From positions 1,550,001-1,614,000 of the forward strand of contig NZ_AP014648.1 in the NCBI RefSeq assembly GCF_000828475.1: a stretch of 64,000 nucleotides of DNA. The letters run 5' to 3'. The stretch is from Methyloceanibacter caenitepidi (GTDB lineage Bacteria > Pseudomonadota > Alphaproteobacteria > Rhizobiales > Methyloligellaceae). A program made the position numbers and the translations under genes. The notes beneath the pieces are model-generated. The model did not search any database and was not told where the DNA came from. It saw only the letters and a list, made by a program, of their open reading frames with translations. Shown here in pieces: positions 23,166 to 28,072 of the stretch; position 1 is the stretch's first letter, and every line of letters begins with the position of its first letter.

Positions 23166-23564
23166 CGTCGATGAGTTTCGCAGCCGGAGATAAAATGCCG
23201 ATGATGCGGACGCTGTCTATGCGATCGGACCGCAAGCGCGTGACGCCGCGTTGCTGGATCACGCCCCCATGTTAGCCGCTAACCCCGCCATGAGCCATGT
23301 GTTCCGCCCAGACAATCGGCGGCGCATCGAACACCGCCCTGAAGCAGCCGCAAAGCGGCAGGGCATTGAGCGTCGCCCGAGCCCCTAGATGGCGCGAATC
23401 GCCCGCGCAAAGTAAGCTCGACCTCAAGTAGCGCAGAGCGCGGTAGGGCAAAGGGTAATGCGCTCAAGTAGGCCGCTAGGCCGGTAGCACACGAAACAAG
23501 CGCTCAAGTAGGCCGCTAGGCCGGTAGCGCACCAAAAGAAGCGCTAGGCGGTAGGGAAAATAAT
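23166..23564. other. Intergenic region with palindromic elements
   Basis: No gene. Elements at 23420-23449, 23460-23490 and 23500-23530 plus a right-hand fragment at 23541-23556, the last ending just before the DUF4239 start codon. Confidence 0.65.
23420..23556 (+). repeat. Cluster of three and a half palindromic elements
   Basis: Copies 2 and 3 share the core GCTCAAGTAGGCCGCTAGG with CCGGTAGC; copy 1 has inner stem GCGC-AGA-GCGC. They are spaced about 40 bp apart with short AAACAA-like spacers. The fragment (GCGCTAGGCGGTAGGG) overlaps the leader of the next gene. Confidence 0.85.
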
Positions 23565-24371: not shown

Positions 24372-24560
24372 GGGGCACCTATTGGTGCATGGTTGGGCAG
24401 TTGAGCGATCCCGCTCAACCGGTCACGGCGCGCAAGCGCTAGAATGCTACTAAGCCAAAATACTTCTCTCTGGTGTGATCTGGCTACACGTCAACGGCCT
24501 ATGACAAAAAACAACCCACCACTAGAATTTATGGTTAACGTTCTAATATAAACTGCTCCC

Positions 24561-25148
24561 ATGCGCGATTCGGACGTACGTGCGGCAGTCCGCAGGAAAC
24601 TCAATCAAAAGCACTGCAGCGATCCGAGTACTCGGATCGTGGAGGAGATGGGCATTTGGTCTGGTGCCGCTCGCATAGATATCGCAGTTATTAATGGTGA
24701 ATTGAGTGGGTTCGAACTCAAGAGCGCGAGCGACACGCTGCATCGGCTCCCTGACCAAGCAAGGCTCTACAGTCAGGTCTTCGATCGAGTCACTCTCGTG
24801 GTGGCCGACTGTCACCTTGATAGGTCATTGAGCACTATCCCCGAGTGGTGGGGTGTTTGCTCGGCTGCACCGATGAAAACCAGTAGTCGGCTGGCGCTCC
24901 GATTGAGACGACGTGCCCGCAGGAACCCCAATGTTGACCCTCTTCAGGTCGCGCGTCTGCTTTGGCGTTCAGAGACTCTGACGCTCTTGGAGCGTTACGG
25001 TCTCGACAAGGGGATTCGCAACAAGACCGTCGAGGTCCTCGCCTCAAAGGCGGCCGACAGCTTGCCGAAACGGCTGCTATGCTTGGAAGTCCGAAAAGCT
25101 CTGAAGACCCGCCAAGACTGGTTAGGGCAGCCGATCTGTAACGAGTGA
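24561..25148 (+). CDS. sce7726-family putative nuclease
   Basis: 195 aa. The core RIDIAVINGELSGFELKSAS carries D...ExK, followed by DQARLYSQVFDRVTLVV with the QxxxY of PD-(D/E)XK enzymes; the total fits sce7726 proteins. The gene lies in an AT-richer segment, with no ribosome site near the ATG. It converges with and overlaps by 27 bp the beta-family gene. sce7726 genes are usually paired with a second specific partner, so the pair is a plausible defence module. Confidence 0.75.
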   Translation: MRDSDVRAAVRRKLNQKHCSDPSTRIVEEMGIWSGAARIDIAVINGELSGFELKSASDTLHRLPDQARLYSQVFDRVTLVVADCHLDRSLSTIPEWWGVCSAAPMKTSSRLALRLRRRARRNPNVDPLQVARLLWRSETLTLLERYGLDKGIRNKTVEVLASKAADSLPKRLLCLEVRKALKTRQDWLGQPICNE

Positions 25149-26117
25149 AATGTGACGGTTCATTCCGATTGAGACCCAAGTCGTTCGGTTTCCAGAGCGT
25201 GTTTTGCCGGAGGCAATTTCCTTGATCCGGTCGTCAGCCCAACAATTAGGAAGCGCATCAAACTGAGGGTCACGCGACAGAGTTTGCGCATGCTGGCGGT
25301 ACTGATCAGCCATCGGTTTCCCGTTGCGACCGCTGGTGGGGCGTCCCTTCAGAATTATCCAACACTCATCGACCGTATAGCGGACGCTGACCGTAGCCTT
25401 GGCCATCGCGAATCCTGGTGGTTCCTCCATGCTTGGATGAACTTGGCCCGTGTCACCAAAGTTCAGCTCGAAAGGAAGGGCAGGTGCAACTGCCTGCCAA
25501 AGTGTCCACTCTCGTCTTGGTACGTTGGTTCGGCCACTTGGTAGGCCGCTATAGTTTTTAGGGGCCGAGGAGGCCACAAGCGTTACAGTGCGCCATTCTG
25601 GCGTCTTGCCCAAATTGGTCTGAATGGCGTTTGCGACGAAAGGGTGGAACATTTCGGACTCGTAACCCGCGATATCGCCCAGAGTGATAACGAGATCAAT
25701 GTCCTTCGTATTCCAACCCTGGTTTGAGCACCAAGCGGCTATGACCCCTAGATCATTGAGCTTCGCCTTCAGCGTGAGGCTGTCAGAGTATTTTCCCAAG
25801 GCAGTGTTTACCGCCTTCAGATACGTGGTGTCGGCTCTTACAGACACAGATGGCGAAACTTCTACGCCAGCTTTGCCAAGCGCCTTAAACATGTCTGAGA
25901 AGTTGGTGGCACTTCCGGTCAGAGTGGTTGTTAGACGACCATCGAGAGCCAATGGCAGTCCCGCCCACGCCGGACCTACCGTCGACGCAAATGATGCTGG
26001 TGGGGACTCCATCACGACGCAGATTGGAAATGTACGGGCCTTTGAGGAGCTTGCCAGGTGCTTCAGTGCGGCAGCCTCTCCAGCCTTGCTTCGCATCACT
26101 GGACGATAAACATACAT
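25122..26117 (-). CDS. Beta-family (T4 beta-protein-like) protein
   Basis: 331 aa starting MYVYRPVMRSKAGEAAAL, the usual N-terminus of the beta-protein family (PF14350), which has a TIM-barrel-like pattern: strand-helix repeats with FPICVVMESP, DIDLVITLGDI and WRTVTLVASSAPKNYSGLPS. The C-terminal DQYRQHAQTLSRDPQFDALP-NCWADDRI is also typical. Named after a T4 immunity-related protein; it is known next to sce7726 genes. A TTG three codons earlier is a possible start. Confidence 0.7.
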   Translation of the reverse strand: MYVYRPVMRSKAGEAAALKHLASSSKARTFPICVVMESPPASFASTVGPAWAGLPLALDGRLTTTLTGSATNFSDMFKALGKAGVEVSPSVSVRADTTYLKAVNTALGKYSDSLTLKAKLNDLGVIAAWCSNQGWNTKDIDLVITLGDIAGYESEMFHPFVANAIQTNLGKTPEWRTVTLVASSAPKNYSGLPSGRTNVPRREWTLWQAVAPALPFELNFGDTGQVHPSMEEPPGFAMAKATVSVRYTVDECWIILKGRPTSGRNGKPMADQYRQHAQTLSRDPQFDALPNCWADDRIKEIASGKTRSGNRTTWVSIGMNRHISLVTDRLP

Positions 26118-26809
26118 CTGAAACAATCTCAGGTTGTTATAAAGGTGCCATCAATAGTTTAATCCTGTGTAACTTTCAACCGTTATAGTGTTTCTGTTTC
26201 GACCTTCGGAGAAACCTTATCCCCCTCCCCAAAACCTGCCGTAGACTGCCTCCCATCCCTCGTTCGTGAGGACGCGAGCTGCAGACCGTCTGCTCTCGGG
26301 GCGGGGGATGCGGCGCCCGAGGTGGCGCGGTACGGATGGGCCCGATGAGAATGAGCAAGCCTGGACAACCGCGTCGCGGCTAACGGACCAGCCCCGGGGG
26401 TCTCTAATCCGCCCGCCTGCGCTGTAACGCGTGGGCCGTCGGGTGAGGCGTGTGCTTCTTCGCATGCGCCTGTGCCACTGGAGATAAGCGCGCGGTATGA
26501 GGCTCTAAAACATCGCCGCGGCGTCGAGGGTCGCTTCGCGATAAGCGATGCGCATTCGATACGCCATGCGGGGCGCCGGAAGGCTGCCCACACTAAAAAA
26601 CGGACGGCGGCCGACCAGCGCCCCGCAAGTCCTCACTGCGTGAGGGCTGTTGTTTTGAGACGTAGGGAGGTTATGGCCAGCTCGGCGTGTTTCCACGCGC
26701 CGGGATGCTTTCGCGCGCCTGCGCTTCTCTTATTTGCGCTACCGGCCTAGCGGCCTACTTAAGCGGGTTTTTCACTGCGCTACCGCGCTTCGCGCTACTT
26801 GAGCGCGAT
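26118..26809. other. Intergenic region without a convincing gene
   Basis: Short frames on both strands have poor codon use and no ribosome sites. A hairpin GTTTC...GAAAC lies near 26196-26215 and several GC-rich inverted repeats follow. The right end carries two palindromic elements. A structured RNA cannot be excluded, but none of the known ones (RNase P, tmRNA, SRP, 6S) could be recognised. Confidence 0.45.
26736..26806 (-). repeat. Two palindromic elements in reverse orientation
   Basis: 26777-26806: outer GCGCT/AGCGC, CAAGTA, inner GCGC-GAA-GCGC, GGT. 26736-26765: left arm imperfect (CCGCT), TAAGTA variant, inner GGCCGCTAGGCC. They lie directly downstream of the minus-strand GNAT gene. 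Confidence 0.8.
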
Positions 26810-27550: not shown

Positions 27551-28072
27551 AGAATTCACGTCCGGTCTAGTTGCTCTCAAAAAGCCTCTCGCGAGGCTCG
27601 GCCTCCTGCGAGGCCCTCTGGCCGACCTTGACGTTGCTCCCTTTCGGTTTGCCGCCGATTCGCTCGGCTGTTGCTCTTGGAGATAGGCGTAGCTTGGGCA
27701 AAAGCCATGGCCGGATGGTGAAGTTTTTGCGGCGCAACAAGCGGCTTTTCGTCTCACGCCCTAGGTGCCCGACGCCTGGTTCGGCGCTGAATCCGCGCTC
27801 AAGTAAGCCGCTAGGCCTCAAGTAGCGAAGCGGTAGGCCAACAAAGAAGGCGGTAGGGCAACGACCACGCCCTCAAGCAGCCGCTAGGCGGTAGGGCAAC
27901 GAACCCGCCCTCAAGCAGCCGCTAGGCGGTAGGGCAACGAACCCGCCCTCAAGCAGCCGCTAGGCGGTAGGGCAACGAACCCGCCCTCAAGCAGCCGCTA
28001 GGCGGTAGGGCAACGAAAATGTGAGGCATCGGCCCGGATGCGGACACGGAGTTGCGTGATAAGGTCCGCGTC
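27551..28072. other. Intergenic region dominated by palindromic elements
   Basis: No gene beyond weak frames to 27790. From 27794 to 28011 the sequence is partial and complete copies of the palindromic element, ending 60 bp before the cyclase start codon. Confidence 0.65.
27794..28011 (+). repeat. Tandem array of the palindromic element (38-bp period)
   Basis: Four identical hairpins at 27869-27897, 27907-27935, 27945-27973 and 27983-28011, each GCCCTCAAGCAGCCGC then TAGGCGGTAGGGC, joined by a 9-nt linker AACGAACCC. Diverged or partial copies precede them at 27794, 27816-27837 and 27848. Confidence 0.9.

Follow-up and report, generated by a model that had tools for sequence, protein, structure and literature searches.

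The locus and its two genes

The window analysed here is a stretch of 64,000 nucleotides of the Methyloceanibacter caenitepidi genome (contig NZ_AP014648.1, positions 1,550,001 to 1,614,000), numbered from its first base. It contains a gene of the sce7726 family at 24,561-25,148 on the forward strand, encoding a predicted PD-(D/E)XK nuclease of 195 aa that is a homologue of P4 cII, and a Beta_protein gene at 25,122-26,117 on the reverse strand, the product of which (331 aa) is a predicted TIM barrel and a homologue of P4 beta and of component C of PD-lambda-2. Both ORFs are present as given in the original prediction, and so is their tail-to-tail coding overlap of 27 bp (25,122-25,148, from the ORF coordinates). 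Read from a TTG codon, the beta frame covers 25,122-26,126 on the reverse strand (334 aa); the ATG at 26,117 yields the 331-aa protein, in agreement with the homologues.

The sce7726 protein matched NCBIfam sce7726_fam (NF033832) with an E-value of 7.5e-47 and 159.6 bits, the curated score cut-off being 70 bits, and the beta protein matched Pfam Beta_protein (PF14350) with 1.5e-43 and 150 bits (cut-off 27); no NCBIfam family, sce7725 included, was matched by beta. PADLOC named the sce7726 protein 'cll' (4.7e-25) and the beta protein PD-Lambda-2_C (PDLC03983, 4.5e-29) and also beta (1.1e-6), and the PHROGs families matched by both proteins are solely of unknown function. The label of T4 homologue formerly attached to beta needs correction, as the beta gene belongs to satellite P4 (record NC_001609). 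The label may derive from the Pfam text for Beta_protein, which says T4.

PD-(D/E)XK nucleases are characterized by a motif of E, D, ExK and QxxxY residues. In the sce7726 protein of the window the catalytic-type residues E29, D40, E52-x-K54, Q66 and Y70 are encoded at 24,645-24,770 (+); D40, E52-L-K54 and Q66xxxY70 are as claimed previously and the invariant E29 is additional. Across an alignment of 71 sce7726 sequences E29, D40, E52, K54 and Q66 are invariant and Y70 is conserved in at least 90%. Template-free AF2 models of the two proteins, built on alignments of the window and related-locus proteins, reached a mean pLDDT of 94.7 for sce7726 and 94.4 for beta. The best VIA rows for sce7726 include restriction enzymes, XisH and Can2, and involve mainly residues 1-123: the top row was 3dnx, of unknown function (Z 10.9, 3.6 Å, 133 aligned), followed by PaqCI (8em1; Z 9.2, 4.2 Å, 125 aligned), XisH proteins (Z 8.5), Can2 (8bao; Z 8.1, 2.9 Å, 107 aligned) and Card1 (6.6), Z values rated as modest by the tool itself. 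Foldseek gave no match for this model at an E-value of 0.001 or better, with SfsA at the top (0.0026). Based on model and motif, sce7726 is a predicted PD-(D/E)XK nuclease fold with an intact motif.

For beta, the best Foldseek rows were mostly TIM-barrel proteins (best E-value 6.5e-5, a designed protein) and VIA aligned the model with 7xlf (Z 11.8, 3.9 Å, 221 aligned). We take the matched entries to be TIM barrels, mostly enzymes, and by these structure matches beta looks like a TIM barrel. Residues P31, P89, D222, Y247, W314 and H322 are invariant in 69 beta sequences. With both models the VIA matches are spread over a large number of families, and no function was taken from them; the structure matches of neither model name a nuclease-effector/partner defence function.

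The pair is the only recognised gene content of a low-GC insert located at 24,377-26,215 (1839 bp), delimited by GC and by homology edges placed within a base. In keeping with the AT-richness noticed earlier, its GC content of 0.538 is lower than that of all 622 sliding windows of insert length taken in 100-base steps (mean 0.630, sd 0.024). Homology with two congeneric genomes, G004 and G014, ends at 24,376, just past the stop codon of a Bestrophin-like gene (PF14023; 23,565-24,371, +; 92% identical in both), and resumes at 26,215 in G014 and at 26,216 in G004. The sharp edges on both sides against G014, where kilobases of match extend over both flanks, identify the segment as an insert. In G004 there is a match on the left flank, but on the right it covers just some 470 bases belonging to a dispersed element; placement at the same site is therefore firm in the case of G014 and likely in that of G004.

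Both congeners carry other low-GC genes at the insert site; in G014 this cargo (L033:9130-12365) consists of a dCTP-deaminase-like gene (PF22769), a uracil-DNA-glycosylase gene (PF03167) and two ORFs without a Pfam family. None of five proteins of the alternative cargo matched PADLOC, and therefore a defence island is not established at this site. A tmRNA was ruled out as the integration site because the full alpha-tmRNA is located elsewhere.

On the right, the insert is followed by the dispersed non-coding element (26,215-26,690), which is present in three copies in the window's genome, with up to five matches in a congener, and is separated from the beta ATG by 97 bases. The single ORF upstream of beta (26,183-26,593, −) lies inside this element and has no Pfam family; the element itself had no match in Rfam or in plasmids. 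Its copies split into two subfamilies, and in a consensus fold 19 of 114 pairs changed on both sides, many of these being common to one three-sequence subfamily. In seven of eight copies the left 1.5 kb has a GC content of 0.51-0.57 vs 0.60-0.66 on the right (Wilcoxon p 0.016; copies L291-L293, partial or at contig ends, left out), which suggests that the element sits at the border of acquired cargo. An intergenic repeat with inverted copies (74 nt, 81%) at 23,418-23,536 and 26,735-26,808 flanks the Bestrophin-like gene together with the insert, and some five units of a 38-bp sequence are repeated in tandem (27,848-28,037).

Convergent order and overlap of beta and sce7726

The orientation of the two genes was surveyed by several routes. 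Among the best 80 of 192 relatives found on genome contigs with a 5-sequence sce7726 alignment, beta adjoins sce7726 in 77 loci (HMMs built here) and all 77 pairs are convergent. Beta was undetectable in the other three: in L093 and L132 the contig ends close after sce7726, and in L108 (Xenorhabdus, L108:6001-7810) sce7726 is followed by protein-kinase and PP2C-phosphatase genes on the same strand. A scan of viral contigs gave 80 convergent pairs among the best 80 of 141 relatives, comprising just 42 distinct sce7726 ORFs; relatives of both genes occur on phage records, plasmid records and viral contigs.

Since these scans lean towards sce7726 proteins close to that of the window, samples that start from beta (Pfam profile) were added. 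In the window's own phylum beta was detected in 13 of 398 genomes, with sce7726 facing it in 11 of 15 loci and absent from four; in the class of G488 (Cedecea, a gammaproteobacterium) it was detected in 8 of 331 genomes, with two of five further loci facing sce7726 and three lacking it; and in the phylum of G489 (Bacillus) it was found in 10 of 348 genomes, all nine loci outside the centre genome facing sce7726. Altogether sce7726 is faced in 22 of 29 loci (window included) and missing from seven, with no co-directional and no divergent case, a count that leaves out the centre genomes G488 and G489, two loci sharing G189 and G122 coordinates and a fragment with an internal stop (L052), and in which some records also appear in the genome scan (L222, L274 and L278 seem to be repeats of it).

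Convergent order had been considered unusual in the original prediction; these data point the other way, as it is the sole order seen for adjacent beta/sce7726 pairs. It holds across many phyla and at beta identities down to 12%. Such uniformity is a rare kind of hint that orientation itself counts in an immune module, and the conserved layout suggests that it may matter here.

The expectation that the two families co-occur beyond chance was supported as well. In the 398-genome phylum sample beta was found in 13 genomes, sce7726 above cut-off in 14 and both in 11, always adjacent, vs 0.5 joint genomes expected (13 x 14 / 398; both profiles were apparently searched in one and the same set of genomes). 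Beta is present in one of 101 genomes of a further search, that of the window itself. Counted from the other gene, 11 of 15 sce7726 matches above cut-off in the phylum face beta; of the remaining matches, three belong to co-directional sce7726-sce7725 pairs and one is a second copy in the window's genome, and the two sub-threshold loci examined of five (L284, L285) are without beta. The second copy (G000:C1:2956356-2956832, 70.4 bits) has no beta or sce7725 seen nearby and lies about 18 kb from a partial tmRNA match (G000:C1:2938150-2938481, 118.9 bits); together they might be the remnant of an island in tmRNA.

The coding frames overlap in 76 of the 77 genome pairs, 39 bases separating the genes in L107, and in 78 of the 80 viral pairs, where L141 has 14 bases between the genes and the beta frame of L145 is split in two. 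In the genome pairs the overlaps measure 4 to 135 bp (median 50.5) apart from L055, where the frame reads on (336), and small gaps between the convergent genes also occur (+5, 0, +14, +27, +39). The overlap phase modulo 3 is 2 in 63 genome pairs, 0 in 12 and 1 in a single one (76 in total). By way of a small control, none of nine convergent CDS pairs overlaps in a 49-kb stretch of E. coli K-12.

Within the window, the codon of a conserved sce7726 tryptophan, Trp187 (25,119-25,121, +, from the alignment), has the beta stop directly after it (25,124-25,122, −), an arrangement found in 13 loci, namely the window and close relatives. A tryptophan occupies this column in 84 of 93 loci (94 aligned, one gapped), and in 67 of the 84 the beta frame extends over its TGG codon, always in phase 2. 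Opposite this column (71 loci, four of them without the Trp) beta reads mostly Ala or Ser and then Asn or Ser (AN 27, AS 14, SN 8, SS 6). As the tryptophan is kept with or without beta over it, the alignment indicates that the residue probably belongs to sce7726 and that the beta end is probably shaped by it.

No hairpin signal was detected at the junction in 78 loci (mean z −0.30 and −0.01 vs −0.24 and −0.10 for the controls), and a bidirectional terminator was dropped as a candidate on this account. The window shows six terminator-like sites against 1.9 expected, all of them inside the two genes and outside the overlap.

Upstream modules and published relatives

Two published systems contain relatives of the window's genes. 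In P4 (NC_001609) gop and beta are on the forward strand and face cII on the reverse strand; the available text of PMC9122126 reports that gop-beta-cII protects against lambda and P1 and that gop is toxic without beta. As in the window, beta and cII/sce7726 are arranged tail to tail on opposite strands, but in P4 gop lies upstream of beta and the stop codons are 27 bases apart, whereas the window lacks gop and its two genes overlap by 27 bp. The second system, PD-lambda-2, shares the beta family with the window through its component C, which is described as 'related to a P4 phage antitoxin' and as needed for defence vs lambda-vir, although not required to neutralise the toxin (PMC9519451, available text). 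The published system has a HigB-like component A and an XRE-peptidase as component B, neither of which is present in the window; conversely, no sce7726 gene is named in the accessible part of PMC9519451, a paper that also does not turn up among those containing the word sce7726, while the window has one. The toxicity reported in these accounts of P4 and PD-lambda-2 comes from gop and PD-lambda-2B, not from cII.

What lies upstream of beta thus varies between gop, HigB/XRE-peptidase (PD-lambda-2) and no such module, the last being the case of the window and of most loci. In the 2.5 kb upstream of the window's beta there was no HigB, XRE-M78 or M78 match, and a phmmer comparison of the upstream ORFs with P4 gop gave none either. 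An M78/XRE-M78- or gop-like ORF occurs within 700 nt upstream of beta in 20 of the 77 genome-scan pairs, and 57 have no M78- or gop-like module in that distance (three of them with under 700 nt of DNA). In at least five of the 57 (L070, L099, L117, L118, L126) another ORF of 161-273 aa is coupled to beta, which means that truly bare pairs are fewer than 57. PADLOC PD-Lambda-2_B was matched in 24 of 111 beta-side neighbour ORFs (111 of 143 candidates scanned), and in many loci beta with its facing sce7726 is joined by an XRE-peptidase, often together with HigB. Where beta occurs without sce7726 and DNA is available on either side (six loci), an ORF invariably stops no more than 17 bases from the start of beta; examples are L270 (HigB and M78-peptidase gene) and L218 (small gene and M78 peptidase).

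In a quick tree of 103 betas the upstream-module label changes at least 10 times and sce7726 presence at least three times. Distances among beta and among sce7726 proteins correlate over 89 loci (Mantel r 0.716, reached by none of 999 permutations). Modules are exchanged while the pair stays, and the distances correlate, evidencing that the facing pair is a stable core.

A putative two-gene defence module

Based on the available evidence, it is proposed, with a probability of roughly 0.58, that the pair of the window is a stand-alone, horizontally acquired defence module formed by a nuclease effector and a TIM-barrel guard. In such a module sce7726 would act on phage or cell nucleic acid upon infection and its partner beta would regulate or trigger this effector. 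With less assurance it can be hypothesized that, owing to the overlap, transcription of one gene would oppose the 3' end of its neighbour, that the nuclease-to-partner ratio could thereby be set in cis and that the genes would not be easily separated. The assignment to a defence-type module made beforehand is in line with the PADLOC names of both proteins and with the protection reported for the P4 relative. Sequence relationships suggest a beta/sce7726 defence family that takes in P4 gop-beta-cII and overlaps with PD-lambda-2. As modules vary upstream of a stable pair, the two published systems look like decorated forms of one beta/sce7726 core. The toxicity reported in the family comes from gop and PD-lambda-2B and component C was reported to be dispensable for neutralisation, observations that weaken both the notion of sce7726 as a toxic nuclease and that of beta as an antitoxin.

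The same locus can be read as a relic, with sce7726 being a recombination/repair nuclease or a regulator that helps its host element, beta a leftover of a lost gop- or HigB-type toxin locus and the pair a decayed defence locus. That the P4 toxin is reported to be gop and not cII (PMC9122126, available text), that no module was matched upstream of the window's beta and that such modules come and go on the beta tree would agree with this history. Decay would not, however, preserve active-site residues that are invariant in 71 of 71 sequences when 57 of 77 genome-scan pairs show no M78- or gop-like module within 700 nt, and beta and sce7726 distances track each other; a decayed locus is considered unlikely. 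Even more improbable seems an addiction module of plasmid or phage style lacking antiviral function: relatives do reside on plasmids and phages, and in P4 beta reportedly counteracts the toxicity of gop (PMC9122126, available text), but trios containing beta protect against phage (PMC9122126, PMC9519451, available text) and the distribution is patchy, with beta in one of 101 genomes.

Compatible with the two-gene defence module, and close to an even bet, is the view that the convergent overlap has no function, its layout having been fixed once in an ancestor of a cassette that moves whole and in which inversion of a single gene is rare. The dominance of phases 2 and 0 is as expected under descent and the junction shows no hairpin signal; against this, tail-to-tail order is kept at beta identities down to 12% while lengths vary and small gaps occur, and the small E. 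coli control contains no overlapping pair. A working role of the overlap is given somewhat less than an even chance. Antisense coupling through it is possible, judging by analogy with E. coli mscL-arfA, tail-to-tail genes with complementary 3' ends for which antisense control is reported; the accessible part of that account adds that the two are co-located only in one order and that base pairing in E. coli joins the 3' UTR of one to the 3' CDS of its partner (PMC10070815). The genes themselves are unrelated to beta and sce7726, and the likeness is confined to a possible working model for tail-to-tail genes.

For the defence module, a bolder version is conceivable, though less likely than not: the bare pair would be the core of a widespread immune system in which a TIM-barrel sensor or guard (beta) arms the sce7726 nuclease, gop-, HigB/XRE-peptidase- and M78-type add-ons are swappable, and the overlap, anchored at the conserved tryptophan codon, is a cis-antisense device that sets the guard/nuclease ratio and reports the state of host transcription during infection. 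If true, two defence systems published apart have one common core, and the form without a recognised add-on toxin module is the most frequent in this sample. Both families and the validated P4 relative are already known; what is new is the pair free of modules, its uniformly convergent order and the reading of both published systems as sharing one core.

The original prediction also held the joint mechanism to be undescribed. This stands in that none was met in the open-access PMC papers retrieved, and has to be qualified in that the defence activity of the P4 trio has been tested. In those papers no test of defence by the bare pair and no description of the pair alone, free of a module, was found. 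In one report an sce7726 and a beta family protein figure in a list of strain-specific genes to which no function is assigned (PMC13414232, available text), and the accessible parts of the open-access PMC papers naming sce7726 give no function for it.

A further arrangement of the family is the sce7726-sce7725-RES triplet (NF033832, NF033831, PF08808), in which, as in the window, an sce7726-family gene stands beside a protein that resembles beta. The resemblance lies in the first 36 residues of sce7725 (hhalign E 0.0017, probability 15.6%), and sce7725 is not upheld as a proven beta homologue, the profile comparison spanning 36 columns only. Unlike the convergent window pair, which is without sce7725, the triplet is co-directional and includes a RES-domain gene. 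Neighbourhoods of sce7726/sce7725 or RES genes are listed on mobile elements, without function, in the accessible parts of PMC9394441 and PMC8248536. The three co-directional sce7726-sce7725 pairs detected in the own-phylum sample (L281:5549-8426, L282:5199-8059, L283:3247-6203) are each accompanied by a third gene, with a RES domain in L281, the one scanned; such loci are possibly a toxin system of their own.
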